A DNA stretch of 64,000 bases from Alphaproteobacteria bacterium HGW-Alphaproteobacteria-18 (GTDB lineage: Bacteria > Pseudomonadota > Alphaproteobacteria > Caulobacterales > Hyphomonadaceae), in contig PHEH01000003.1 of assembly GCA_002841155.1 (NCBI GenBank), forward strand, positions 186,001-250,000, written 5' to 3'. This document shows, piece after piece, positions 6,904-22,778 of the stretch. Within the stretch, counting starts at the first letter, position 1. The number at the start of each line of letters is the position of its first letter. The notes beneath the pieces are model-generated. The model did no database searches. It saw only the letters and a program-made list of their open reading frames with translations, and was not told the DNA's origin. The translations under genes were made by a program, and so were the position numbers.

Positions 6904-8502
6904 ATGCAGGAATTTGACTATGTGATCGTAGGGGCCGGCGCTGCCGGCTGCGTGCTGGCTTACCGCCTGTCAGAAAATCCGGCGGTGCGGGTCGCGCTCC
7001 TGGAAGCGGGACCGCGGGATGTGCACCCGTTCATCCATATGCCCAAGGGGCTCGCCAAAGTAATGGCCGACCCGGCCCATATCTGGGCCTATACGAGCAA
7101 GCCTGAAAGCGCCAATGCTCAGACCCCCGAAGTGTGGGTCCGGGGCCGCGTGCTCGGCGGGTCCTCCTCCATTAACGGCATGATGTATGTGCGCGGTCAG
7201 CCGGCTGACTATGACGCCATCGCTGAATCGACCAGTAATGACTGGAGCTGGGATCATATCGGTCCTGCCTTTCGCGCCCTGGAGACTCATGAACTCGGGC
7301 CGGACGAAACGCGCGGCGACCGCGGCCCGCTGAATATCACCATGCCCGACACCAAGGACGCCCTGACCGATGCCTTTGTTGAGGCAGGCCAGTCGCTCGG
7401 ATGGCGGTATAAGCAGGACACAAATGCGCCCGAAGACATAGAAGGCATCGGATACGCGCCCCGCACCGTCCATAAAGGCCGCCGGGTGAGCGCCGCCACC
7501 GCCTTCCTGAACCCGATCCGCAACCGGTCAAACCTGACGATCCTGACGGACTGTACGGCTGACAGGGTCACCTTTGAGGGCAACCGGGTCACCGGCGTTG
7601 AGGTCATTGCATCAGGCAAGGCGCAAACCCTTCGGGCTCGCCGGGAGATTATTCTGAGCGCCGGCGCTATGGCGTCACCGGGCATTCTGGAACGCTCAGG
7701 GATCGGATCACGCGCGCGCCTTGAAGCGCTTGGCGTCGAAATCCGGCTGGAAAATCAGAATGTCGGCGAGAACCTGATCGAGCACCGGGGACTGATCATT
7801 CAATGGAAACTGAACCGGGATATTTCGCACAACAAGAAGTATCATGGCTGGCGCGTCCTGCTGAACGGCATTCAATACTATCTGACACGCAAAGGCCCGC
7901 TATCAGCGGCCGCCTATGAACAGGTTGCCTGGTTCAAGTCCCGCCCTGGCCTCAACCGGCCGGACGTTCAGTTTCTGCTCGCGCCCTTCAGCTTCGATTT
8001 CGCCAAGAACCGGCAGGATGTCGAACGCGTGCCCGGCATGCATCTTGTGACCTATCCCCTCCGCCCGACCTCGCGCGGCTCGGTCCATGTGACCAGCCTC
8101 GACCCGAATGCGCCGCCCGACCTGATTACAAATTACCGCGATACCGAAGAAGACCGCCAGTCGATGATCGGCGCGGTGCGCATGGCCCGCCGGCTGGTCG
8201 AGCAGCCCGCCCTCAAGGCCATCGTCGAAGCCGAAACCATGCCGGGCCCGGACTATGATACAGACGAGAAGATCCTGGAAGCCTATGACCGGTTTGGCAC
8301 CTGCGGCTATCACGCCGTCGGCAGTTGCCGGATGGGCCGCGAGCCTGAAACCAGCGTCGTCGATCCGGCCTTGCGGGTCCATGGTCTTGAAGGCATCCGG
8401 ATCATGGACACGTCCATCCTGCCCGCCATTCCTTCCGGGAACACCAACGGGCCGGTCATGGCCATGGCCTGGCGCGCCGCAGACATAATCCTGAGGGGCT
8501 GA
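6904..8502 (+). CDS. GMC family FAD-dependent oxidoreductase (choline dehydrogenase-like)
   Basis: FDYVIVGAGAAGCVLAYRLSENP, GRVLGGSSSINGMMYVRGQ, YHAVGSCRMG, GNTNGPVMAMAWRAAD. Confidence 0.95.
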   Translation: MQEFDYVIVGAGAAGCVLAYRLSENPAVRVALLEAGPRDVHPFIHMPKGLAKVMADPAHIWAYTSKPESANAQTPEVWVRGRVLGGSSSINGMMYVRGQPADYDAIAESTSNDWSWDHIGPAFRALETHELGPDETRGDRGPLNITMPDTKDALTDAFVEAGQSLGWRYKQDTNAPEDIEGIGYAPRTVHKGRRVSAATAFLNPIRNRSNLTILTDCTADRVTFEGNRVTGVEVIASGKAQTLRARREIILSAGAMASPGILERSGIGSRARLEALGVEIRLENQNVGENLIEHRGLIIQWKLNRDISHNKKYHGWRVLLNGIQYYLTRKGPLSAAAYEQVAWFKSRPGLNRPDVQFLLAPFSFDFAKNRQDVERVPGMHLVTYPLRPTSRGSVHVTSLDPNAPPDLITNYRDTEEDRQSMIGAVRMARRLVEQPALKAIVEAETMPGPDYDTDEKILEAYDRFGTCGYHAVGSCRMGREPETSVVDPALRVHGLEGIRIMDTSILPAIPSGNTNGPVMAMAWRAADIILRG

Positions 8503-8512
8503 AGCCCCTCAG
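8491..8512. terminator. Hairpin CTGAGGGGCT-GA-AGCCCCTCAG between convergent genes
   Basis: Perfect 10-bp arms overlapping the GMC stop codon; lies between convergent GMC (+) and Rieske (-) genes. No strong T tract. Confidence 0.5.
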
Positions 8513-8528
8513 GCATTGTTGTGCCGGA

Positions 8529-9731
8529 TCAGAGGAACCGCTCGAGAATATCATAATAGAGCGGGATGGTCTCTTCGAGGCCGCAATACACCACATCTGT
8601 CATCGCGCCGGAGGACAATCCGGCATGGGAGATTTCAGCCGCGCGGAAATCTTCGCCCCCGAACACATTGAGGATCATCTCATAGGACCGCCGATAGACG
8701 TCCTCGGCCTTTTCATTATCGGGCTTGCCGCGTGTCATCATGATATAATCAACGACAGTGCGTCCGGGACCGCGCGGAATGATGAACATCACGCTGATAT
8801 AATAGGGGCTGGTGACGATAACCGTGTTGGGGAAGACCAGATAGGCGTGGGTCACCGATTTGTGGATATTCTCGCCCTCGATATCGAGACAATCGGGGGT
8901 GAAATTCACCTTGCCGGAAATCTGCCGGATGTTCAGCCCAAGGACATCTGTTACATTGGGGACATCGGCAAACATCGGGCCAACCGACCGGGCGTGCAGA
9001 CGCTGAACATGGTAGCCTTCAAGGAAGGGTTCCTGGACGAGCTTCCAGTTGGCCGCCAGGTCGAAGGTCTTCCGGCCATAGACGTGCATGCGTGGCAGAT
9101 CAAGCGCCTCCATGTCGGCCGCCAGCAGGTCATCCATTCCCCGGAAGTCGGGCTCGGCATTCCGGTCAAGCATAACCCAGACAATGCCACCGGCTTCGCG
9201 GCAGGCAAGCTCCGCCAGTCCGCGCTCTGTCTTGTCGAAGTTGGCGATGGTTTCTTCGCGCGGCACAGCCACAAGCCGCCCGTCCAGCGCGAACGTCCAG
9301 GCATGATAGGGACAGGTCAGCTTCTTGGTGAGATGCGTCTCACAGTCTTCGACCAGCTTTGATCCCTTATGCGTACAGGCGTTTAGAAAGGCGCGCACCC
9401 TGCCATCGGTATCCCGGCTGATCAGGAGCGGTACACCATAGCTGTCATGGGCAATCACGCTGCCATTGCGCGGCAGGCGCGCTGAAACGGTAACGGGCAC
9501 GGCAAACTTCCGGAACACGTTCGCCTGCTCCCGCTCATAGCGCGCCTGATCGAGGAAGATCGAAACAGGCCGGCGCGCATCAATGGCCCGGGGTTTGGCG
9601 TCATCATGTCCGGGAATTTCACGAATTGCCCGGACCTGATCGCGGCTCAGGTCTTCCAGCGTCTGGACTCTCTTCAGCTCGGGGCCGGTGGGGGCCGGGC
9701 CGGCCGGTACGGTTTTATCGATCAGGTTCAT
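8529..9731 (-). CDS. Rieske non-heme iron oxygenase, alpha-subunit type
   Basis: ACTHKGSKL...LTCPYHAWTF Rieske CxH/CxxH motif; NWKLVQEPFLEGYHVQRLH non-heme iron region. Confidence 0.92.
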   Translation of the reverse strand: MNLIDKTVPAGPAPTGPELKRVQTLEDLSRDQVRAIREIPGHDDAKPRAIDARRPVSIFLDQARYEREQANVFRKFAVPVTVSARLPRNGSVIAHDSYGVPLLISRDTDGRVRAFLNACTHKGSKLVEDCETHLTKKLTCPYHAWTFALDGRLVAVPREETIANFDKTERGLAELACREAGGIVWVMLDRNAEPDFRGMDDLLAADMEALDLPRMHVYGRKTFDLAANWKLVQEPFLEGYHVQRLHARSVGPMFADVPNVTDVLGLNIRQISGKVNFTPDCLDIEGENIHKSVTHAYLVFPNTVIVTSPYYISVMFIIPRGPGRTVVDYIMMTRGKPDNEKAEDVYRRSYEMILNVFGGEDFRAAEISHAGLSSGAMTDVVYCGLEETIPLYYDILERFL

Positions 9732-9778
9732 GGAACTCCTACCCCTCTGGTGTAGCGCAGCGTCGCGTCTTCTTATTA

Positions 9779-9793
9779 CCTAATGTCGTTAGT
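9779..9793. promoter_or_regulatory. Operator A copy: CCTAA-TGTCG-TTAGT
   Basis: About 48 bp upstream of the Rieske oxygenase start. Confidence 0.65.
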
Positions 9794-9846
9794 TTATGAT
9801 CCGCGCGTCGCAAAGTCAATTCCTGCGGTACGGGAGATAGGGAGAG

Positions 9847-11067
9847 TCAGAGCCCCAGCTGCCCCTTGGAGAGAATGCCGCGCTGGATTTCATTGGAGCC
9901 GGCATAGATCGACCCGGCCCGGTCATTCAGATACTTGGCCGGAGCGGTGACCGCGCTTTCCGGGCCAACCAGCGGGACGTTCGGGGACAGATTGAGACTT
10001 TCCGCAGCCGGAACAGGCCCGCCGGGAGACGTATGCTGGGGCTGGAAAGGCGCGGCATAGACACCCGCCAGTTCAATCGCCAGCTCGGTGAGGTGCTGGC
10101 TGAGTTCTGTCCCGCGGATTTTCATCATTGAGGCCTTGAGGCCCGGCGTGCCGCCTTTGGCAAGGTCTGACATCTGCTGAAGCTCTGCGGCTTCAAGCGC
10201 GAGGATGTCGGCTTCGGCCAGCGACAGCTTGCGGGCAAAGCCGGGCTCCAGCAGGCCCTCTTCAGCGGCGGTGGCGCGGATGGCGCGCAGGCGCGCGAGC
10301 AGGCGCGGACCATAGGAAGACCCACCGCGCTCGAATTCGAGCAGGTATTTGGCGACCGTCCAGCCTTCATTGACCTTGCCGACCACATTCGCCTTGGGCA
10401 CGCGCACATCGGTGAAGAACACCGCGTTCTGGATATGCTCGCCCGACAGCATCAGGATCGGGTCCACCTTCACGCCGGGCTGGTCCATGTCGATCAGCAG
10501 GAAAGTGATGCCCTGCTGTAGCTTGCCGGAGCTGTCTGTCCGCACAAGGCAGAACATCATATTGGCTTCATGCGCATGCGTGGTCCAGATTTTCGAGCCA
10601 TTGCAGATGAAGGCGTCGCCATCATCGACCGCGGACATGGTGAGCGCGGCAAGGTCGGAGCCGGCATGGGGTTCTGAATAGCCCTGACACCAGAAATCCT
10701 CGCCCGAGAGAATGCGGGGGAGGTAGTAATCCTTCTGTTCCTTCGAGCCGTGGCCGATCAGCGCCGGGCCGCACATGCCGATGCCCATGGGTGAGAGCGG
10801 CGGGGCGCCCGCGCGGGCCATTTCCACATCGAAGATATAGCGCTGGGCCGGCGTCCAGCCCGTGCCGCCATACTCAACCGGCCAGGAAGGGCAGGCCCAG
10901 CCCTGCTTCACCAGAATTTCCTGCCATTTCATGCCGATGGGCTTGGTGGAATAAACGCTGGTCATGCGCCTGGCATAGGCGCGCAGATCCTCGGTCAGGT
11001 TCTTGTCCAGGAAAGCGCGGACTTCTTTGCGGAAGGCTTCTTCCTCGCGGGTAAAAGCAAGATCCAT
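9847..11067 (-). CDS. Acyl-CoA dehydrogenase
   Basis: WCQGYSEPHAGSDLAAL, IYAGSNEIQRGILSKGQLGL; start refined to MDLAFTREEEAF. Confidence 0.93.
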   Translation of the reverse strand: MDLAFTREEEAFRKEVRAFLDKNLTEDLRAYARRMTSVYSTKPIGMKWQEILVKQGWACPSWPVEYGGTGWTPAQRYIFDVEMARAGAPPLSPMGIGMCGPALIGHGSKEQKDYYLPRILSGEDFWCQGYSEPHAGSDLAALTMSAVDDGDAFICNGSKIWTTHAHEANMMFCLVRTDSSGKLQQGITFLLIDMDQPGVKVDPILMLSGEHIQNAVFFTDVRVPKANVVGKVNEGWTVAKYLLEFERGGSSYGPRLLARLRAIRATAAEEGLLEPGFARKLSLAEADILALEAAELQQMSDLAKGGTPGLKASMMKIRGTELSQHLTELAIELAGVYAAPFQPQHTSPGGPVPAAESLNLSPNVPLVGPESAVTAPAKYLNDRAGSIYAGSNEIQRGILSKGQLGL

Positions 11068-11175
11068 TCGGCTGTCTCCTCTGATGTGGTGCTGCGCGCT
11101 TCCCTCATCGGGAAACCGCCGCGGGCGCATATCTGGCGCATATAAGGGGATTGCCTGAACCGCAGCAATCATTAA

Positions 11176-11190
11176 ACTATTGCCAATAGG
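11176..11190. promoter_or_regulatory. Operator A copy: ACTAT-TGCCA-ATAGG
   Basis: Divergent ACAD/CoA-ligase intergenic region. Confidence 0.6.
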
Positions 11191-11231
11191 TTTTTGATCA
11201 GCGGCGCGACAAGCCGTTCCGGGAGGACAGA

Positions 11232-12728
11232 GTGCAGACAATCAATGACGCCATTCACTGGTGGGCCCGGGTTATGCCTGACGCCATTGCGCTGGATTTC
11301 GGCGACGATCGGGTGACCTATCTCGAATATCGGAACTGGTCGGAACGCATTGCCGCCGATCTGATCGCGCGCGGTCTGAACCCGGGCGAGCGGGTCGGGA
11401 TCTGCGCCACCAACAGCCTGTCATACTGCGTTCTGATCCTCGGAATACTCCGCGCGGGCGGGATCGCCCTGCCCATGAACATGCGCTACACACCCCATGA
11501 ACTGGCCGAAATCGCAGAAGACACGGCCCCCCGCTTTATCTTTGCCGACGCGGACCGCCTCGGCAAAGTAGATGGGCTGTCATCGGCCGCGATCGATATC
11601 CAGGACATCAACCCTCTCCGGAACGGCCCCCCCGCGCGCATCGCGCATCAACCGAGACCCGATGACCGGGTGGTGATTATCTCCACCAGCGGCTCAACCG
11701 CGAAGCCCAAGGGGGTTGTCTTCACCCATCGCAGTATGACGGGCTATGTGGCGACCCACGCCATCGAGGAACAGAGCCTCGGCAAAGGGTCCCGCGTGAT
11801 CATCCCTGCCCCGCTCAGCACATCGGCCGGGTTTGTTCAGCTCACGCACTACACTGTCCTCGGATGCACGCTGCACTTCCTGAATGCGTTCGAACCCGCG
11901 CTCTTCCTCAAGACTCTCGTGGACAAGAAGATCAACGGCTTTGGCGCCGTACCGGTGTTTTTTGAGGCAGTCTCTAAACTGCCGGAGTTTGCAGAAGCCG
12001 ACCTCTCCAGTATCACCATGGCAACCTGCGGCGGCGCGCCGGTCACCCAGTCCCTTCAGGACACCTGGATGAAGAAAGGCATCGTTCTCCGCCAGATCTA
12101 CGGCCAGACCGAATGTGGCGGCAATGGCACCATCATGCCGGAACATATCGCGCGCTCGCAGCCTCAGAAATGCGGCATGGGCGGAATGTTCAATGAAGTC
12201 GCCATTGTCAACGAAGACGGAAGCCTGGCGCCTCCCGGAACGGTCGGACAGATTATCCTGCGCGGACCGGGCAACATGCTCGAATACTGGAACAATCCGG
12301 AAGAGACCGCCAAGGTTCTCAAGGACGGATGGCTGCATACCGGCGATCTGGGCGTCCTCGATGAGGATGGCCTTCTGACCTTCATTGACCGGATGAAGGA
12401 CCTGATCATTTCCGGCGGGCTCAACATCTCCGCTGCCGAAGTGGAACGCGCGGTCCTCTCTTTCCCGGGCATCGAGGAATGCATGGTGATCGCCGCCCGG
12501 GATGCCAAGTTCGGGGAAACGCCGCTGGCGGTCATACATGCCCGGCAGGAGATCGATATCCCTGCTCTGATCTCCCACTGCAACGCCCGCCTCGCGGATT
12601 ATAAAGTGCCGCGTTACGTAGCCTTGGAACAGATGCCCTTGCCAAGGACCGCAACCGGAAAACTCGCCAAGCCGGAGATGCGGTTAAAATATGCCAATGC
12701 GCCAGATCAGTTGCCGCGGGTGCGCTGA
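11232..12728 (+). CDS. AMP-binding acyl-CoA synthetase
   Basis: VVIISTSGSTAKPKGVVFTH, GWLHTGDLGVLDEDG, PLPRTATGKLAKPEM. Confidence 0.94.
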   Translation: MQTINDAIHWWARVMPDAIALDFGDDRVTYLEYRNWSERIAADLIARGLNPGERVGICATNSLSYCVLILGILRAGGIALPMNMRYTPHELAEIAEDTAPRFIFADADRLGKVDGLSSAAIDIQDINPLRNGPPARIAHQPRPDDRVVIISTSGSTAKPKGVVFTHRSMTGYVATHAIEEQSLGKGSRVIIPAPLSTSAGFVQLTHYTVLGCTLHFLNAFEPALFLKTLVDKKINGFGAVPVFFEAVSKLPEFAEADLSSITMATCGGAPVTQSLQDTWMKKGIVLRQIYGQTECGGNGTIMPEHIARSQPQKCGMGGMFNEVAIVNEDGSLAPPGTVGQIILRGPGNMLEYWNNPEETAKVLKDGWLHTGDLGVLDEDGLLTFIDRMKDLIISGGLNISAAEVERAVLSFPGIEECMVIAARDAKFGETPLAVIHARQEIDIPALISHCNARLADYKVPRYVALEQMPLPRTATGKLAKPEMRLKYANAPDQLPRVR

Positions 12729-13041
12729 GACATAGCCGTCCGGCACTATTCGATGACGCCACGCGTCGCCGGAGAACGCAATCAATCATCATCCCCGCGC
12801 CAGACATCGGAGCGGTGATTTTCAGGAGGCGTCGCGCTTGGTTTTGCAGAACGCATGAGTTCACCCGCGTCCTCAACCGCTAAATCGATGTGTAACGAAG
12901 GATGCTCCGCTTGGTCACTGAACTTTTCATAGAATTGGGTGAGATTCCGTGTTGAAAAAAAGGACGCGAATTCACCGCCTGCGTGCAGGTGTTGAAACGG
13001 CGTAAATCAATACTCGTTACCACACCCGAACTGCGCAGCAA

Positions 13042-13863
13042 TCACTCAAGAAGCCTGTCCCGTATGGCACTCACCTGCGCGGCCGTTAAGCCGTACACTG
13101 TCTTGACGAAAGCTTCGATCGTCCCATGCTCTTTTTGCAGGTGAGTCAATGTGGCCCGAATGTAGTCGGGATGTGAGATCAGAAGCGGTTCAACAAGCTC
13201 ATCAGCCAGTTCGCGCAATATGTTCTGCCCGTGCAGCCTTGAAGGCTTCTCGCCGTCGAGGCCTAGTTCCTTCCGGTAATCCACGATCCGGGAAGACAGC
13301 GAGTAATCGTCGATGACGAGGTGCTCCGGGACACCCAGGAGACACAAGATGATCGCAGCGATCACACCCGTCCTGTCCTTACCTGCCGCACAGTGAAAAA
13401 GCAGGGGAACTTCGCCTTCAGACAGATGTTGTAACACTGAGGAATAGGCCTCAGCGTGATCGTAAGGCATCTTCCTGTAGAGATTGAGCATGAAAGCGGT
13501 TACAGTTTCCGGCCGCAGGCCGGGATCAGTAAACGTCGTGTTCATCACGGCGAGGTTGCCACTCGCGGCGGACGAAAAGCCTATCTCTTTGACAGGCGCG
13601 CCAGCCCAGATCGTAGGGAAGGCTTGACGTTCCTCCGGAGTTCTCAGGTCAAAAATGCGCTTCAGCTCAAGCCGGTCGATTCTGCGATAGTCAGAAGGCG
13701 TCAGCCTGTTGAGACCGGCGGAACGGAACACCTTATACCGCCTGACTGATTTTCCGCAGGCGGTAGGATATCCACCAAGATCACGAAAGTTCTGCCCCCT
13801 CTGCAGTTTCAGAACGCGGCTGGGAACGCCCCCCACATAGGGTTTAAATGTTCTTATCCACAT
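13042..13863 (-). CDS. Tyrosine/serine protein phosphatase (Y_phosphatase3-like)
   Basis: NFRDLGGYPT...FRSAGLNRLTPSDYRRI...HCAAGKDRTGV P-loop. Confidence 0.88.
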   Translation of the reverse strand: MWIRTFKPYVGGVPSRVLKLQRGQNFRDLGGYPTACGKSVRRYKVFRSAGLNRLTPSDYRRIDRLELKRIFDLRTPEERQAFPTIWAGAPVKEIGFSSAASGNLAVMNTTFTDPGLRPETVTAFMLNLYRKMPYDHAEAYSSVLQHLSEGEVPLLFHCAAGKDRTGVIAAIILCLLGVPEHLVIDDYSLSSRIVDYRKELGLDGEKPSRLHGQNILRELADELVEPLLISHPDYIRATLTHLQKEHGTIEAFVKTVYGLTAAQVSAIRDRLLE

Positions 13864-14232
13864 AACTGATCCCTACCCGGTCGATCGCATGTCTGTCTTG
13901 CGGCAAGCAGTAGCGGCGCCCTGGTCTGTCCCCAAATTTCAGCTGAACAGCCCTGAGTTTTTTTGGATGGCTTTCATTGAGGTTGAGCCGAAGTGGCCGT
14001 GATGTGCAGCAACGTGTGAGAGCGCGAGCAGATGCGGCAACACCCCTGCTTCTTTCGAGAATCGGTGAGACGCGACGCGTTCGAATTCATCGAGATGCTC
14101 CAGGCCGAAACGCGCAAACACATTTGGAAGGGGGAGCCATTACCCGTCCAGTTCGAGAGGCAGCCTGAATTGAAAGCCGAGGGCATTCAAGAAACGTGAG
14201 GCAACTCAAAAAACAGTCTTCGCAACGATCCC

Positions 14233-14904
14233 TCAGTCATGAATTTCCACAACGGTATCTGCATTGCCGCAGGAACAGGCCGCCCCTGATAAGGCCCCCA
14301 TGACGCCCGTCCTCAGCCCCGAAACCGGTTCAAAACGGTTCAAACGGCTGGAAAGCACCAGTTCACCCTGCTCGGATCGTATGTCCCATTCCCACCGGTC
14401 CAGATGAACCTCGCCCTGCTCGCATCCAAAGCCAAGCGCGGGACCGATCAGCAGGCAGCGGCGCGCTGTCACGCCGTCCATACGGCTCACGGCCTGCCAC
14501 GCGTCTGGGCGTGCCCAGATTACCCGCCCCCGAAAGACAGTCTCAGGGTCATGTCCCATCATCTTCAGCCCTTCCAGGGTCTGGGCGCTGACCCCCATCA
14601 TTCCGGCGGGATTAAACTGCCGGCTGATGGACTCAACCCGGCCGGCGTCGAACGGGCTGTCATCGGCATTGATCCCGAACAGGCCCAACTGCTGAACGGC
14701 CGCCTCAAACGGCGCGAACTGAATGACCTCAGGGGTCGAGGAGATGGTCAGAACAAAGCTTTGCGGCGCGAACCCGAACGTCTGCAGGGTACGGACCATA
14801 CGGGTTCCGGACCGGTCGAGTTCGGTACGCATGGCAGAATAGAATTCCCGCCTTGTGCCAACGGCATAGGAACCAACGATGTCAGGATTTGAGGTCATGG
14901 CCAT
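14233..14904 (-). CDS. Stand-alone PaaK-like adenylation-domain homologue, apparently degenerate
   Basis: GELVLSSRLNRFEPVSGLRTGVMGALSGAACSCGN aligns by eye with GELVVTTLVDRLCPLIRYRTGDLVVIDRAPCGCGR of the adjacent PaaK-like ligase; no Thr/Ser/Gly-rich P-loop and no C-terminal domain. Confidence 0.6.
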   Translation of the reverse strand: MAMTSNPDIVGSYAVGTRREFYSAMRTELDRSGTRMVRTLQTFGFAPQSFVLTISSTPEVIQFAPFEAAVQQLGLFGINADDSPFDAGRVESISRQFNPAGMMGVSAQTLEGLKMMGHDPETVFRGRVIWARPDAWQAVSRMDGVTARRCLLIGPALGFGCEQGEVHLDRWEWDIRSEQGELVLSSRLNRFEPVSGLRTGVMGALSGAACSCGNADTVVEIHD

Positions 14905-16205
14905 CACTTCTTCGTCACTCTGGGGATTTTATGAGGCGGGCCCAGCTTCAGCAGCTCAGCCTCCTCGACAAGTTCGATCACGGTCCGAACGCCAATCTGC
15001 CCGGCGATGTCGTCATGCAACCTTGCTTTCAGGGCATCCGCGCGGCCCGTCAGGCGTTCGGGATCATACCCGATACGGATCGACAGCTCCGGCATCTCGC
15101 GGTCCCGCCGGATGATCTGAAACAGCCCGTGGCGCGTCTCGGAATGGTTTTCGACAATCCCCATGATCTCGCGCGGCAGGATGGACCGGCCTTCGACAAG
15201 GATCTGATCGGTCGCGCGTCCGAGTATCTTAAAGCGTGAATGCACACGTCCGCAGCCACAGGGCGCCCGGTCAATGACCACCAGGTCACCCGTGCGGTAA
15301 CGGATCAGCGGGCAGAGCCGGTCTACCAGCGTCGTCACCACAAGCTCACCAATCTCACCATCCGCAACCGGGTCTGTGGTAATCGGATCTATGGCTTCGA
15401 TATAGGCAAGATCTTCATAGGCGTGGAAGCCGTTATGCATCCGGCAATCGGTGGTCGAGGCGACATCCCCAAGGCTCGTCGTCTCGTAAAGCTCAAGGCC
15501 CCAGGATTTGACGACGGCCTTCATCCGGTCACTCAGCGGCTCGCCGCCGAAGATTGCGCCCTTGTAGGAGCTGAAGACATCGACCGGATCGATACCGGTC
15601 TTTTCGATATACTGCTCCATCGCGTGAAGGAACGGGCTGGCAAAATTGTTCATGACGGTCGGTCGGAACCGGAGAGAGGCCTCCACAAGGCGCGGCAATT
15701 CAGCCGGATGCATGGAGAGATAGATGTCCGAGACCCCGAGTTCATTGTAAAGGCGCCGGCGATGCCCGCCGCGATACGTGAACATCATGTGGACGTGATA
15801 GTCTCCGGGGCGCATGCCGATCCCCCAGAGGTCCCGGCAATACCCGATTTCCGGAGCGCCCAGGCGGCTGTTCGGAATCGGGGTCGGGTCACCCGTGGTT
15901 CCCGAAGTCGTTCCCATCGAGACCGTCAGTCCAGGGATCGTGACGCTCGTCCCGCCCCCGACATCATTGTGCGTGTCCCGGAAAATGCGGATATCGTCCT
16001 TGTCGATGAAAGGCCAGATCTCCCTGAAGGCCTTGACCGAGGTGACGTCCCGCGCGTCCACACCGGCTTCGGCACATTTCTGACGGATCAGGGGCGCGTA
16101 GTCCTGCGCATGGCGGCACATCGCGCCGATGGCGTTGTCCTGAAGATCGTTCAGAAATTCGCGAGACGCCGTCTCAAGCGGGTCGAGAAATTCGGGGTAC
16201 TTCAT
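14904..16205 (-). CDS. Phenylacetate-CoA ligase (PaaK)-like adenylate-forming enzyme
   Basis: SMGTTSGTTGDPTPIP, GGEPLSDRMK, IRYRTGDLVVIDRAPCGCGRVHSRFKILGRATDQILVEGRSILPREI. Confidence 0.9.
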   Translation of the reverse strand: MKYPEFLDPLETASREFLNDLQDNAIGAMCRHAQDYAPLIRQKCAEAGVDARDVTSVKAFREIWPFIDKDDIRIFRDTHNDVGGGTSVTIPGLTVSMGTTSGTTGDPTPIPNSRLGAPEIGYCRDLWGIGMRPGDYHVHMMFTYRGGHRRRLYNELGVSDIYLSMHPAELPRLVEASLRFRPTVMNNFASPFLHAMEQYIEKTGIDPVDVFSSYKGAIFGGEPLSDRMKAVVKSWGLELYETTSLGDVASTTDCRMHNGFHAYEDLAYIEAIDPITTDPVADGEIGELVVTTLVDRLCPLIRYRTGDLVVIDRAPCGCGRVHSRFKILGRATDQILVEGRSILPREIMGIVENHSETRHGLFQIIRRDREMPELSIRIGYDPERLTGRADALKARLHDDIAGQIGVRTVIELVEEAELLKLGPPHKIPRVTKK

Positions 16206-16252
16206 GTTTCCTCCTTTTACGACACGCGTTCGATTGCGCATTCGTTGTCAAC

Positions 16253-17809
16253 TTATCCGGCACTTGGATAGCCGCCCCCGCCAAACGCGGCGTCCACGGC
16301 CTCCCGGTCGATTGCCCCGGCCGTATTCCTGGGGATCTGATCGGCAAACACGACGATCTTCGGCTTTTTGTAGGAGGCAAGGTGACGCCGGCAATGGTCG
16401 ATGAATTCTTCCGGCGCATGGTCTCCGCCCGGCTTGCGAACAATAACGGCCTTGATGTTCTGGTCCCAGGCCGGATCGGGTACGCCGATGACGCAGACAT
16501 CGGCCACGCCCTCATGCTGGCGCAGACACGCCTCCACCTCGGCCGGATAAACGTTTTCGATGCCGGTTTTGATCATCGTGGTCTTCGGACCCACAAAGAC
16601 CAGGGACCCGTCCGGCAGGCGTTTTCCAAGGTCGTTGGTCCGGTGCCAGCCATTGACCACACGCCGCGCATTCTCTTCGGGCCGGTTCCAGTAGCCGCAC
16701 ATCACCAGAGGGCCGCGCGCCAGAATTTCTCCGGTCTCCCCGACCGGCTTCTCCTGGCCTGCCTCATCGCCGACCATGATCTGGATGAACGGTGAAGCGC
16801 GGCCTGCGCCCGAGCCCCCAAACCAGAGCAGATTGACCAGCCCGCCGATCTCGGTCTGGCCATATCCGCCCATATGCCGCATCTGGGGCGCATCGGCGGG
16901 CATGACCAGAGGGATACGGTAGTCAGACATCTGAGGATCGGAAAAGATCGATGAAACATCGTATTTTCCTTCCTGGTTGAGCGCCCGCATCTGGGCAATG
17001 GTCGGCGCCGCGATGAAGGCATGGGTCAGCTTGTAGCGGTCTATCATGCCGAGCATCTCTTCAGCATCCACACGGGACACAAAGGCGCAGCGCCCGCCGC
17101 AGAGGAATGTTGCCATGGCACCCATGAGGACGCCGAGATGGAACATCGGCCCCGATACCAGATAGCCGCTGCGTTCATCCACCTTCTGCCCCATGGTCGA
17201 GAGCCAGGAAACCAGCAGGATGGATTCATGGCTCAGCAGGGCGGCGCCGGGCCGGCCACTGAAACCGGCGGTGTAGATGGCCAGCAGAGGTGTCGACGGC
17301 TCGACCGGATCGAAGACGGATTCAGGGTTGGCCGCGGCCAGAAGTTCCTCATAAGCCGCTTCCCCGTCGCACCCGTCATGGCAGATCCAGTTGGAGTCCG
17401 GCCGCCAGGCGCTTCTGGCTTCCCGATTGACGGCGCCGATTTCCTTTTCCTGCCAGAAGACAATGGCCGGATCGAAGTCATCCAGGGCAAAAGCAATCTC
17501 GCTCGCCGACCACCGCCAGTTTGCCGGACAGACAATTGCGCCGAGACGGGCACTTGCCAGCAGCGTCTCAAGCACGCGGAACGAGTTCTGCCCCAGCCAT
17601 AGGATGCGATCACCCTTCCCTACGCCTTTGGCGCGGAGGACAGCCGCCAGACGGTTTACCCTATCATCGAGCTGGCGAAAGTTGAAGGAGACATCGCCTT
17701 CGATGATGGCAGTCATATCCGGCCGGTCACGCGCGTGCTGATGAAGCAGGTCGCCGAGCCCATAAGCGTGAATTCCAAGATAAGGATTAAGCGCAGTATG
17801 CTGTTTCAT
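16253..17809 (-). CDS. AMP-binding acyl-CoA synthetase
   Basis: LLAIYTAGFSGRPGAALLSH, GQTEIGG, GWHRTNDLGKRLPDGSLVF, PRNTAGAIDREAV. Confidence 0.91.
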   Translation of the reverse strand: MKQHTALNPYLGIHAYGLGDLLHQHARDRPDMTAIIEGDVSFNFRQLDDRVNRLAAVLRAKGVGKGDRILWLGQNSFRVLETLLASARLGAIVCPANWRWSASEIAFALDDFDPAIVFWQEKEIGAVNREARSAWRPDSNWICHDGCDGEAAYEELLAAANPESVFDPVEPSTPLLAIYTAGFSGRPGAALLSHESILLVSWLSTMGQKVDERSGYLVSGPMFHLGVLMGAMATFLCGGRCAFVSRVDAEEMLGMIDRYKLTHAFIAAPTIAQMRALNQEGKYDVSSIFSDPQMSDYRIPLVMPADAPQMRHMGGYGQTEIGGLVNLLWFGGSGAGRASPFIQIMVGDEAGQEKPVGETGEILARGPLVMCGYWNRPEENARRVVNGWHRTNDLGKRLPDGSLVFVGPKTTMIKTGIENVYPAEVEACLRQHEGVADVCVIGVPDPAWDQNIKAVIVRKPGGDHAPEEFIDHCRRHLASYKKPKIVVFADQIPRNTAGAIDREAVDAAFGGGGYPSAG

Positions 17810-17812
17810 GGA

Positions 17813-18253
17813 TCAGGCTTTCCGGAAAATCGGCAGTTTCCAGCCATCGCGGATGTCGTTCCAGTCAACCCGCACTTTCATCCCGATGACCACGTCCTCA
17901 GCGGGCATGCCCACCAGGTTGGACACAAGCCGGGCACCAGGCGCGCCATCAAGATCAACCACGACCGGGACGTAGACAAAGTCCGGAACATCCGGAAACG
18001 GAGATTTGTTGCAGATGGCAAAACTGAATACTGTGCCGGTTCCTGGCAGGGCTGGCCAGTTGACCTTCTGGCTCTGGCAGTTGGGACAAAAGGCGGTTGG
18101 CGGCATCCTGAAATGTCCGCAGGCGCCGCACTGGCAGGCGGTCAGCCGCTCCGCCTTTGCCGCCTGCCAGAAGGGTTCGGTCCAGGTATCGGTCGTAATC
18201 TGGATGTGGTCGCCAGGGATCTTCATGGCGTCGCCATAGGTGATGCCGGTCAT
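17813..18253 (-). CDS. DUF35 / OB-fold Zn-ribbon protein (second copy)
   Basis: LTACQCGACGHFRMPPTAFCPNCQSQKVNW; TGATG start/stop overlap with the thiolase-like gene. Confidence 0.87.
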   Translation of the reverse strand: MTGITYGDAMKIPGDHIQITTDTWTEPFWQAAKAERLTACQCGACGHFRMPPTAFCPNCQSQKVNWPALPGTGTVFSFAICNKSPFPDVPDFVYVPVVVDLDGAPGARLVSNLVGMPAEDVVIGMKVRVDWNDIRDGWKLPIFRKA

Positions 18254-19452
18254 CAGGAATCCCTCCTCAGGATGCATCCGGATACAGGTAAGGAAGCCGG
18301 CCCACCGGTTACCAGCGCAAACTCGGCATCCTTCACCTGGTTGATCGCGCTTTCGCGCAACTGCTCGACCGCCTCACGCGTATGGGTTGCGCCGATGATG
18401 TAGGCTTCAGAGAGCTGTCCACCATGCGGGTTGACGGGAAGTGACCCTCCGTTGAACCGGATCGCACCGCTCTCGACAAACGGACCGCCCTCGCCCTTGG
18501 CGCAGAAACCATAATCCTCAAGCTGCATGACGACCATAGCACTGAAATGATCGTAGATAAGCGCGACATCTATATCAGAAGGCTGCAGGCCGGAGAGCTG
18601 CCAGAGCCGGTCGCCGATTGGCTTGTGGCCGGAGGATCCGAAATCAGGATCCGGCATGCCCATCCAGGCGAAGGCTCGCCCCCAGTTGCGTGACCCTCCG
18701 TGCGCGGCCGCATGAATGAGGACGGGCTTCTGCCTGAGATCCCGCGCGCGCTCGGTGGACGTGGTGATCCAGGCAACGGCGCCATCCGTCTCCAGGCAGA
18801 AGTCGAGCCTGCAAAGTGGGTCTGCAAGCATGGGGCTTGCAAAATATTCGTCGAGCGTGAGCTCGGTCTTGCGCACGGCCTGCGGCCGGTTCATCGCGTT
18901 CAGGCGCTGGCTGATAACAACCTCTGCGAAGGCTTCCCGCCGGGTGCCGTAGAGGTGCATGTGCCGGCGCGCGAGTACGCTCATGAGATGGCCGGGGCCG
19001 ACCAGGCCGGATGGCTGCAGAAAGGAGTTTTCCGGGCTGGGGGCCGAGGCGCCGAAAACGGTCCCGAGGCGCTGGCGGTATTGCTGGAGCGCCATTACGG
19101 TGACGACGTATCTGGCGTCCTCGTTCTGAATGGCTGCCGCTGCAAGGCCCACGGCGCCAGCAGCGCCGCCGCCCCCGCTGGTGAGTGCTGCCGTAAAGCC
19201 GACCTCCTCAATCCCCAGCATTTCCATGAGAGACGCGGTATCGGCCTTGTCACCATAGCCCATCTGAGCGCCTGAATAGTAGGCAAAACCATCGATCTGC
19301 TTAACGCTGATCCCGGCATCCTCACAGGCCTTGAGGATGGCTTCGCCAACCATCTCGTTTATTGTACGAGGAAAGCTCTGGCCGCGGATATAATAATCCG
19401 TCGCCCCTATTCCTGCGATCGCGCATTTGTCCTGATTGACCCAGACCAACAC
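18253..19452 (-). CDS. Thiolase-like protein (SCPx/Ltp2-type; second copy)
   Basis: CAIAGIGATDYYIRGQSF..., ALTSGGGGAAGAVG (no Cys nucleophile), ALIYDHFSAMVVMQLEDYGF. Confidence 0.86.
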   Translation of the reverse strand: MLVWVNQDKCAIAGIGATDYYIRGQSFPRTINEMVGEAILKACEDAGISVKQIDGFAYYSGAQMGYGDKADTASLMEMLGIEEVGFTAALTSGGGGAAGAVGLAAAAIQNEDARYVVTVMALQQYRQRLGTVFGASAPSPENSFLQPSGLVGPGHLMSVLARRHMHLYGTRREAFAEVVISQRLNAMNRPQAVRKTELTLDEYFASPMLADPLCRLDFCLETDGAVAWITTSTERARDLRQKPVLIHAAAHGGSRNWGRAFAWMGMPDPDFGSSGHKPIGDRLWQLSGLQPSDIDVALIYDHFSAMVVMQLEDYGFCAKGEGGPFVESGAIRFNGGSLPVNPHGGQLSEAYIIGATHTREAVEQLRESAINQVKDAEFALVTGGPASLPVSGCILRRDS

Positions 19453-19483
19453 TGTCCTCCCAAGCCCGGCAATTTTTTGCCAG

Positions 19484-19500
19484 ATATATAACTAGGTGTA
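19484..19500 (+). promoter_or_regulatory. Operator B copy: ATATATAACTAGGTGTA
   Basis: About 32 bp upstream of the thiolase-like gene heading the 19452-14233 operon. Confidence 0.7.
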
Positions 19501-19562
19501 TAAGGCTTTGAGCGTGGGCATGTCTATACCCCAGTTGTCCACCCGTCCTGAATTTCCGCGGG

Positions 19563-20789
19563 TCAGGCAAAATGGAGCCGCCGGTACCTGCCCTTGAAAT
19601 AGAGGAGCGGGTCACGCCTTGGCTCGTACCGCGCGCGCTCAACCCTGCCGACGAGGATCACATGGTCTCCCCCGTCATACTCTGCGTGGCGGACGCACTC
19701 AAAATTGACCAGCGCTCCGGACAGGAGCGGCACATCATGCTGTCCCCGCTGCCAGGGTGTTTCAGAGAAACGGTCTGTGCCAGGCCTGGCAAACCGGTTG
19801 GAGACAGGTTGCTGACCTATGTGGAGCACATTCACCGCAAAATGCTCAGCCCCCTCCATTGCCCTGAGACTGCCGGAAGTCTTGGCGATGCAGACCAGGA
19901 GCAGCGGCGGATCGAGGGACACCGAGGTAAACGAGTTTGCCGTCAGACCGACCGGCTGCCCCTCTCTGTCCATTGCGGTCACCACCGTGACGCCCGTCGC
20001 AAAACACCCCAGGGCGTCCCTCAGTGTCCTTGCATCAGAACCCGTGCGATAGTCCGGCAGGTATCTTGGAACCCGGCGCTCCAGAAAATCCAGAAGCGTT
20101 GCGTTGAAAAGGTCCGACCGGTCAAACGCCACCATGTGTCCGGCATCCCGGATTTCTGCAAATTCGGCGCCCTCGATCTGATTGACATATCGCCCCGCCG
20201 CCTCTGCCTCGGTAAGTTCGCTCAGCGCGCCGCGCACGAACAGTACAGGGATCTTCAGGTTCGGCGCTGCGGCTACCACACGGCGCGTCGCGGCTTCGAG
20301 GTTCATGGCGTCCAGAAACCGGGGGTCCCACCGCTGCCCGGGCTCGCTTCTGGCGCTGCGTTTGCGCAGGGCATCGCCGACCTTCCTTGCGGCCTTCGCA
20401 CTGATCTCCGGAGGGGCATCGGCAAGGACCAGACCGGCAGCGAGATGCCCGCCGTCTTCGCCAAGCGTTGCAGCCGCGATCCAGCCACCCAGCGATGCGG
20501 CGACTATCACGGGCCGGACCGGCAGCTGTGAAAGCACACATCTCAGGTCTTCGACATAGGCATCGAAATCATATCGGCCGTCCTGCGGCCAGTCGCTGTC
20601 GCCATGGCCGCGCAGATCAAGATTGATAACATGCCGGCCGGCCTTCACAAGCGCTCTGGCCGCATCCTCCCAGACGCGACGTGTCTGGCCACCGCCATGC
20701 AGAAGCAGGACTGCCGGGTCCTCGGGCGACCCGCTGATCTCGGCGCGAAGTGTGGTGGCGGCAAACCCGCGGAATTCCGTCACAGACAT
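19563..20789 (-). CDS. Fusion protein: N-terminal alpha/beta-hydrolase + C-terminal flavin reductase (HpaC-like)
   Basis: N-half LLLHGGGQTRRVW...LRGHGDSDWP...VAASLGGWIAA...RDAGHMVAFDRSD; C-half LRDALGCFATGVTVVTAMDREGQPVGLTANSFTSVSLDPPLLLVCIAKTSGSL...FAVNVL. One continuous ORF. Confidence 0.88.
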   Translation of the reverse strand: MSVTEFRGFAATTLRAEISGSPEDPAVLLLHGGGQTRRVWEDAARALVKAGRHVINLDLRGHGDSDWPQDGRYDFDAYVEDLRCVLSQLPVRPVIVAASLGGWIAAATLGEDGGHLAAGLVLADAPPEISAKAARKVGDALRKRSARSEPGQRWDPRFLDAMNLEAATRRVVAAAPNLKIPVLFVRGALSELTEAEAAGRYVNQIEGAEFAEIRDAGHMVAFDRSDLFNATLLDFLERRVPRYLPDYRTGSDARTLRDALGCFATGVTVVTAMDREGQPVGLTANSFTSVSLDPPLLLVCIAKTSGSLRAMEGAEHFAVNVLHIGQQPVSNRFARPGTDRFSETPWQRGQHDVPLLSGALVNFECVRHAEYDGGDHVILVGRVERARYEPRRDPLLYFKGRYRRLHFA

Positions 20790-20812
20790 GCGCGTCTGCC
20801 CTCCCTTTTGTT

Positions 20813-21541
20813 TTACTTTTTTCCGCGCGACTGCTCCGAAAGCCACTCGGCAATCATCGCGGTCCGGCGCGCGGTCAGAAGACGCGCAATCTCGGGATCC
20901 CCCTCAAGAATTGCATTGCAGAGCTGGATCTGAAGGCTGCGCGCCCGTGCGCGGTCCTCCGCCTGCTGATAAAATCTGATGTTCTGCTCTTCCCGGCCGA
21001 ATGTATAGCCGATTTCCATGAACAGACCGATTGCTGGATTGCCGCTCATGGACGACATCATCCGCGCGAGCCTTGTCTCCATCTGGATAAGCGCTTCGGG
21101 AGAATCGTCTGCCGGCTGCACACCGGCAACCAGGTCCCGGTGCGCGCGCAGGGCGGTCCTGAGATCTTCATCCTGGCATTGCGCGGCAAGGGCGGCCGCT
21201 TCTGCGGCGATCAGGCGCGTAACGGCATGAACATGATCCAGGGTTGCGCCATTCAGGCGAAGGAAGCGCGCGGGTGCACGGATGACATCGGCCGCCGAGG
21301 GCCGGGTGGCAAAGAAGCCCCCGCCCTGCCCCTTCCTTACGGCAATCAACCTGTCCGCCTCGACAATCTTTGCTGCCTGCCGGAGGGTCGGCCGGCTTAC
21401 ACCAAGCTCAGTGAGCAGCTCTGTCTCAGACCCGATATGCTCTCCTTCGGCCACCGACAGGGATCGTTCGGCCAATCGCCGGGCCGTCTCCGAGACGCGG
21501 CTCCCGGCAGATCCGATTTGCAGAGTGGATTCATAGGGCAT
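20813..21541 (-). CDS. FadR/GntR family transcriptional regulator
   Basis: AERSLSVAEGEHIGSETELLTELGVSRPTLRQAAKIVEADRLIAVRKGQGGGFF winged HTH, FCD-like C-terminal domain. Confidence 0.87.
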   Translation of the reverse strand: MPYESTLQIGSAGSRVSETARRLAERSLSVAEGEHIGSETELLTELGVSRPTLRQAAKIVEADRLIAVRKGQGGGFFATRPSAADVIRAPARFLRLNGATLDHVHAVTRLIAAEAAALAAQCQDEDLRTALRAHRDLVAGVQPADDSPEALIQMETRLARMMSSMSGNPAIGLFMEIGYTFGREEQNIRFYQQAEDRARARSLQIQLCNAILEGDPEIARLLTARRTAMIAEWLSEQSRGKK

Positions 21542-21586
21542 GGTAGTCTCCGGCCTTTTAGATACCTATTGGGACATTTTTCGTCA

Positions 21587-21603
21587 ATAACATAGTTGTA
21601 TAA
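21587..21603 (-). promoter_or_regulatory. Operator B copy (reverse strand): TTATACAACTATGTTAT
   Basis: Divergent FadR/amidohydrolase intergenic region. Confidence 0.65.
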
Positions 21604-21671
21604 CTCGGAATTCTGTTTTATTAGTTACCTGTTAGAGGCGATCGATGCCGGACAAAACAGGGAGACTTTTT

Positions 21672-22778
21672 ATGCAGACTTTCGTATTCAGCGCGGACGC
21701 GCACGTGGTTGAGCCGCCAACCCTGTTTCTGGACGGCCTGCCCGCCTCACTTAAGGATCACGCCATCCACGCCCGCAAGGAAGGTGATTTCCTGATTACG
21801 GGCACAAAGGACAAAACGATCTACCGCCTGCGTGTCGGCGCCAAGGGGGAAAAGGAACTCGGCGACCGCGAACGCCGGGGCGTGCGGGAAATTCCCGGCC
21901 GGATCCTCGACATGGAGCTCGACGGGATCAATGCCGAGATCGTTTTCCCCTCTCTCGGTCTCTGGCTGTACTGTCTGGATGATGCAGAAGCTGAAGCGGC
22001 CTCCTGTAAAGTCTACAATGACTGGAACAACGCCTATTTTGCCGGAAATCTGGACAGGTTTGTCCGCTGCGGCGTCCTGCCTGTCCAGGATTTCTCAAAC
22101 ACGCTTGAGGAAATGAAACGTCTCGTAAAGCTTGGCTTCACGGCCGCCATGCTGCCGGCGGTGACCCCGCCTGGTATCCCGAAATACAATGACGAAGCCT
22201 GGGATCCTGTCTTCGCGCTCGGCGGCGAGCTCGGACTCGTTTTTGTGCTTCATACCGGAACCGGTCTTGAGACCGTCGTCCATGAGCGCGGCCCCGGCGC
22301 CGCCGTGATCAACTATTCAAACCAGATGTCGGACGCGATTAACTCATGCCAGTATCTCGTGGCGGGCGGTGTGCTTGATCGCAATCCAGAAGCCAGGGTT
22401 GCCTTCATCGAGAGCGGTGCAAGCTGGCTTTCAGCCATCGCCGAGCGGATGGACGAAGTGTATGTCGCCCACGACATGTTCGTCCGCCCCAAACTGTCCA
22501 TGATGCCGAGCGAAATCATCAAGCGCCAGGTCTTTGTGTCCTTCCAGCATGACCGGGCCTGCATCGCCCACCGCAATGAAATCGGGGTGGAGAACTACAT
22601 GTGGGCATCTGACTATCCGCATGCAGAGGGCACATTTCCCAAATCGAAGGACATTGTCGAAGGCCTTTTTGCCGGCATCGATATTACCGACCGCGAGAAG
22701 CGCCTGATACTGGGCGGCAATGCGGCCCGGCTGTTCCGGCTCAACCATCCTGCCGTGGCGGATCTTGTCACGGCTTGA
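21672..22778 (+). CDS. Amidohydrolase (Amidohydro_2) family protein
   Basis: FSADAHVVEPPTLFLDGLP, LDMELDGINAEIVFPSLGLW, NYMWASDYPHAEGTFPKSK...NAARLFRL. Confidence 0.9.
   Translation: MQTFVFSADAHVVEPPTLFLDGLPASLKDHAIHARKEGDFLITGTKDKTIYRLRVGAKGEKELGDRERRGVREIPGRILDMELDGINAEIVFPSLGLWLYCLDDAEAEAASCKVYNDWNNAYFAGNLDRFVRCGVLPVQDFSNTLEEMKRLVKLGFTAAMLPAVTPPGIPKYNDEAWDPVFALGGELGLVFVLHTGTGLETVVHERGPGAAVINYSNQMSDAINSCQYLVAGGVLDRNPEARVAFIESGASWLSAIAERMDEVYVAHDMFVRPKLSMMPSEIIKRQVFVSFQHDRACIAHRNEIGVENYMWASDYPHAEGTFPKSKDIVEGLFAGIDITDREKRLILGGNAARLFRLNHPAVADLVTA

Follow-up and report, generated by a model that had tools for sequence, protein, structure and literature searches.

The last two genes of an operon in the window (the 64,000-nt stretch of contig PHEH01000003.1 of Alphaproteobacteria bacterium HGW-Alphaproteobacteria-18 that was analyzed here) encode a PaaK-like ligase and a small protein that, judged from its sequence, is homologous to the ANL/PaaK family and yet is no catalytic member of it. 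Comparison across genomes and plasmids shows that the small protein is found solely alongside one particular clade of PaaK-like proteins and that its family is under purifying selection. That it serves as a non-catalytic subunit in a split acyl-CoA ligase is, in our estimate, about as likely as not.

The gene pair and its operon

Both open reading frames named in a previous sequence-only reading of this DNA are present on the minus strand. The PaaK-like gene (14904-16205) encodes a protein of 433 aa and is preceded by a clear Shine-Dalgarno sequence on the same strand (AAAGGAGG, 16210-16217). The small gene occupies 14233-14904, as that reading had it, with its stop codon at 14235-14233; the protein, however, is 223 aa long from the ATG at 14904 rather than 224 aa, the longer figure having counted a GTG one codon 5´ of the ATG. 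The TGATG overlap between the two genes is real. At the junction, AAGTGATGGCC, a single base (14904, minus strand) is common to the TGA of the PaaK-like gene (14906-14904) and the ATG of the small gene (14904-14902), which implies translational coupling of the two genes. At the other loci with adjacent genes where the junction was inspected, the PaaK and small genes overlap in ATGA or TGATG or lie 11 nt or less apart.

The PaaK-like gene is the last but one and the small gene the last in an operon that runs, on the minus strand, from a GntR/FCD-type regulator (20813-21541) through a fusion of an alpha/beta hydrolase with a flavin-reductase domain (427 aa, 19563-20846), a thiolase-like protein of the SCP-X type (399 aa, 18253-19452), a ChsH2-type OB-fold/zinc-ribbon protein (154 aa, 17813-18277, overlapped by the thiolase gene) and an AMP-binding protein (518 aa, 16253-17809). 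The hydrolase-reductase fusion is found in the same operon in Henriciella relatives; the cluster of Sphingomonas paeninsulae has a shorter alpha/beta hydrolase alone, without an annotated reductase. A divergent gene for an Amidohydrolase_2-family protein (21645-22778, plus strand) is kept beside the operon in relatives. The Y_phosphatase3-type tyrosine phosphatase encoded downstream of the operon (13042-13863, minus strand) is probably unrelated, since none was seen at the other loci. An Rfam scan of 13800-22000 detected no RNA family, and a promoter scan gave nothing above chance. The terminator scan returned 10 candidates, slightly above the shuffles (mean 5.4), with none 3´ of the small gene.

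Beside the operon, 6904-12728 encodes a GMC oxidoreductase, a Rieske oxygenase alpha subunit, an acyl-CoA dehydrogenase and an ordinary acyl-CoA ligase (11232-12728), and is a further part of the degradation region. The thiolase/OB-fold pairs and the nearby Rieske oxygenases suggest aromatic or alicyclic acids as the substrate class, with the ipfDE thiolase of ibuprofen catabolism as an analogy (PMC11347016).

A PaaK-type adenylation-domain homologue without catalytic residues

The small protein had been aligned by eye with the middle of its PaaK-like neighbor, and profile comparison bears this alignment out. Using hhalign, a profile of 14 small-family members (A3) was matched to one of 13 members of the PaaK clade (A4) with a probability of 96.9 and a score of 78.6 over 207 columns, far above the score of 14 for a reversed profile and of 24 for the best of 60 column shuffles. 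The alignment is collinear, pairing small-protein residues 10-221 with PaaK residues 97-327. Generic PaaK proteins outside the clade were matched by the small family with a probability of 96.3% over 193 columns, and about 200 columns together with the CxCG zinc knuckle are shared with the PaaK ligases (PDB 2y27, 2y4o and 4r1l), NatL2 and 2-hydroxyisobutyryl-CoA ligase (6hdw). The proposed homology to the ANL N-domain is thus upheld by profile comparison (hhalign 97%), and the small protein is, on this evidence, a homologue of the PaaK-type adenylation (N-)domain. A search with the small protein matched no Pfam family and gave weak PaaK-type matches in NCBIfam, one of them to PaaK at E 0.02; scans of all small-family members against both collections yielded nothing beyond weak PaaK- or FadD-type matches. 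An AlphaFold2 model built from a shallow alignment of two sequences (the window's and that of Henriciella mobilis) reached a pLDDT of 39, and a Foldseek search with this model returned no match at E<=0.001.

The losses described for the small protein, namely of the P-loop, of the RTGD aspartate (replaced by valine) and of the C-terminal lid domain, are correct: in the segment aligned to the P-loop hairpin the loop is gone, and the chain ends before the lid domain. The A5 acid, the A7 Asp and the A10 Lys are also absent. Compared with the PaaK family, of which its neighbor is a full-length member, the small protein is about half the size and lacks in addition the helical microdomain. Without any catalytic residue, it would therefore act by binding.

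The two halves of the small protein differ in their resemblances. C161, H167, C210 and C212 are kept in the protein of the window and probably form a zinc site of the PaaK/NatL2 type; in NatL2, a PaaK relative, the site is made up of Cys248, His254, Cys308 and Cys310 (PMC7204872). Across the 16 sequences of the family, all four ligands (C-x(5,6)-H ... C-x-C) are found in seven, the site is missing from eight and one has a partial set. That ligands ~45 residues apart are kept all or none is consistent with a genuine metal site within a fold like that of PaaK, and this pattern is evidence that the C-terminal half of the small protein keeps the PaaK fold. The C-half matches PaaK only. The N-half (residues 1-108; 14581-14904 in the window, minus strand) scored 52.5 against the N-terminal subdomain of PtmA2-like proteins and 41.1 against the middle of PaaK, both well above the shuffle controls (20-21), and members with the zinc ligands lean to PaaK while the others lean to PtmA2-like proteins. 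By these scores the N-half resembles an ordinary ANL N-terminal subdomain, of the FadD/PtmA2 type, at least as well as it does the middle of PaaK. This pattern could reflect either a quasi-repeat of ANL subdomains or an ordinary N-terminal subdomain that was kept here and is lacking in PaaK enzymes. A mosaic origin of the family, with an N-half of the FadD/PtmA2 type and a C-half from PaaK, is possible. Because the N-half also matches subdomain A of the PtmA2-like proteins, the exact domain assignment of the small protein is tentative.

The small family, annotated only as 'hypothetical protein', was found at 16 loci in Pseudomonadota and Actinomycetota. Ten are in genomes of the window's order (the window's own, three more from the same family, Henriciella mobilis among them, and six that belong to two other families) and six are on plasmid records (Massilia, Novosphingobium, Sphingomonas, two Rhodococcus and Mycobacterium branderi). 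The family is rare, with a true member only in the window's own genome among 399 genomes sampled from the phylum and 385 from the class, though these absences are approximate since the genome searches rank and score just the top candidates of each genome. A single-sequence search of viral contigs with the small protein found no relatives. Where it could be estimated, dN/dS within the family was 0.06-0.44, and six residues (G74, R89, G154, P155, W173 and R190) are invariant in all 16 sequences. A protein stripped of all catalytic motifs could come from a duplicated ligase gene that has lost its function and is decaying, but such a remnant would hardly keep intact frames in two phyla, these invariant residues and this dN/dS, nor would it be retained after separation from PaaK as it is in Novosphingobium, and we regard this explanation as barely credible. 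Pseudogene status of the small gene itself is ruled out by dN/dS together with the distribution.

Co-occurrence with one PaaK clade and a PtmA2-like protein

The sequence-only reading had named the lack of a conserved association with PaaK-like ligases as one thing that would refute it; such an association was found. At 15 of the 16 loci a PaaK gene, always of the same clade, lies directly 5´ of the small gene. The sole exception is Novosphingobium pSA2, where the two genes are in one cluster 14 kb apart and the small gene overlaps the PtmA2-like gene instead. When 72,556 plasmid records were searched with the PaaK-like protein of the window, the six top-ranking matches came from exactly the six records that encode the small protein, and the seventh match fell to 28% identity. 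PaaK matches in a sample of 200 genomes from the order separated into a group at E < 1e-200, in which all five genes were accompanied by the small gene, and a group at E about 1e-62, in which none was. Five further members of the clade found in other searches all have the small gene (5/5). It is absent beside seven PaaK genes from the class that fall outside the clade, and for generic PaaK genes the count is 0/12. Clustered genes can co-occur because the cluster is transferred as a unit, so these data show a functional link rather than a physical complex.

The PaaK-like protein matches solved PaaK structures over its whole length and is predicted to be competent for adenylation, as it keeps the P-loop (SGTTG), an acid at the A5 position (D247), A7 (D307), A8 (R330/D333) and A10 (K426). 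The P-loop, A5 acid, A7 Asp, A8 Arg/Asp and A10 Lys are present in 14/14 sequences of the clade. We had considered a loss of adenylation in the clade, because A5 seemed to be gone, and rejected it when structure alignment placed an invariant acid at the A5 Glu; this acid is Asp throughout, except for Glu in Novosphingobium. Scores against the equivalogs TIGR02155/NF041878 were 126-130 bits, below the cut-offs of 646-700, and by its sequence the protein belongs to a subfamily related to the phenylacetate-CoA ligase PaaK that lies outside the curated equivalog.

As far as can be told from its sequences, the clade keeps everything that an ordinary complete ligase needs, which speaks against a split reaction. 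With all catalytic motifs kept, the small protein could serve as a folding or stability chaperone or as a regulator, stabilizing or switching a complete PaaK ligase outside any split reaction, and co-translation and the strict pairing with the PaaK clade are consistent with such a role. It would leave unexplained, however, why a PtmA2-like protein that lacks the adenylation lysine is always present, and we consider it quite improbable.

This PtmA2-like protein, overlooked in the sequence-only reading, is the AMP-binding protein encoded at 16253-17809, whose best solved relative is PtmA2 (PDB 5upq, E 1.5e-133, residues 17-517). It has a degenerate P-loop (YTAGFSGRPGA) and has lost the A10 Lys, with A5 and A7 kept, and it resembles PtmA2 both in these lost motifs and in a GGGGYP C-terminus. 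In its family the A10 Lys is absent from 17/17 homologues and a normal P-loop is found in 0/17, whereas the three control ligases of the window keep the A10 Lys and an ordinary or near-ordinary P-loop. By homology and by loss of the adenylation motifs it is of the PtmA2 type, and on the same grounds it is predicted to carry out thioesterification only. PtmA2 is a non-adenylating, thioesterifying half-ligase according to PMC6594144 and to the title of Wang et al. 2018 as cited in PMC10847714.

A PtmA2-like gene is part of the cluster at 16/16 small-gene loci, at distances from adjacent to within about 40 kb, and at all 16 the adenylating candidate encoded with it is the clade PaaK. In a sample of 180 genomes from the order, searched by ranking just the top candidates of each genome, PtmA2-like genes were found in five genomes, the same five that have the small gene; weaker matches in two other genomes arose because the PtmA2-like profile included one ordinary ligase. 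The PtmA2-like genes adjoin thiolase and OB-fold genes at most loci. The PtmA2-like family of such catabolic-looking operons is probably a widespread and misannotated half-ligase.

The Rhodococcus oxybenzonivorans pRB98 locus (10646-13551) has a PaaK-like gene directly followed by a PtmA2-like gene and then by OB-fold and thiolase genes, and is by its sequence the same module in a two-part form. It has no small gene, and its PaaK lies outside the clade. Such a split ligase can therefore work without the small protein, which is thus tied to the PaaK clade rather than to PtmA2-like proteins generally.

The gene arrangements also bear on which protein the small one contacts. The small gene of Novosphingobium shows coupling to the gene for the PtmA2-like protein and not to PaaK, so the physical partner could be the PtmA2-like protein, and in Massilia the small gene lies 1 nt upstream of the PtmA2-like gene. 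The small protein might then be an escort that carries the acyl-AMP or acyl group from the PaaK-like to the PtmA2-like protein, or that docks on the latter. Its presence only where both half-ligases occur, the position of its gene between or beside theirs, including these two junctions, and an N-half whose best match is the N-terminal subdomain of PtmA2-like proteins are all consistent with an escort. On the other hand, PMC6594144 describes PtmA1/PtmA2 as a pair of enzymes, and all nucleotide-binding motifs are absent from the small protein, so that binding of acyl-AMP in its ancestral site is unlikely. Overall, we judge an escort function unlikely.

A candidate three-component acyl-CoA ligase

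This leaves the reading as a non-catalytic subunit of a split ligase. With a PtmA2-type half-ligase encoded upstream, the PaaK-like protein is more likely to be an adenylating half than a complete ligase helped by an accessory protein. In the mechanism we propose, the PaaK-like protein would make the acyl-AMP, the PtmA2-like protein would convert it to acyl-CoA, and the product would feed the thiolase/OB-fold pair. The small protein would bind the PaaK-like enzyme. Published PaaK structures are dimers; with their shortened N-domain the P-loop stands isolated, and this makes dimerization necessary (PMC8388817, section 8). By analogy with these dimers, the small protein would most plausibly replace the second protomer, which would give a PaaK:small heteromer that is asymmetric and has a single active site, and it may also offer the acyl-AMP to the PtmA2-like protein. 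The full arrangement, a three-component acyl-CoA ligase in which a PaaK enzyme with a dead half-size mate passes acyl-AMP to a PtmA2-type enzyme, is offered as a tentative model whose chances we place well short of even.

ANL enzymes are, in the textbook view, single-chain, two-step catalysts. PtmA1 and PtmA2 of platensimycin biosynthesis reportedly split adenylation from CoA attachment, a result said to come from Wang et al. in 2018. The system described here differs from that pair in its setting in a catabolic-looking thiolase/OB-fold cluster and in having a third, small pseudo-subunit, and it may also differ in its adenylating candidate, which is of the PaaK type. Among other families, HisZ of HisG-HisZ is a pseudoenzyme subunit derived from a partner enzyme, and encoded and conserved with the active enzyme; the small protein is likewise a catalytically dead relative that is encoded and conserved with an active PaaK. 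In the literature we found no example of a pseudo-subunit within the ANL superfamily and no description of such a small subunit. If the model is true, then, as far as the literature found shows, neither a heteromeric ANL ligase with a pseudo-subunit nor a catabolic split ligase of the PtmA1/PtmA2 kind would have been described before.

In a split ligase such as PtmA1/PtmA2 the unstable acyl-AMP would have to move between proteins, and the structural element missing from this picture may be a conserved, dead PaaK domain that always accompanies both half-ligases. The idea of a split ligase is directly testable since Rhodococcus jostii RHA1, which is genetically tractable, has the small protein (WP_011600127.1, beside the PaaK-like WP_011600128.1 and the PtmA2-like WP_011600124.1). 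A family so far called only a hypothetical protein would thereby gain a name linked to function.
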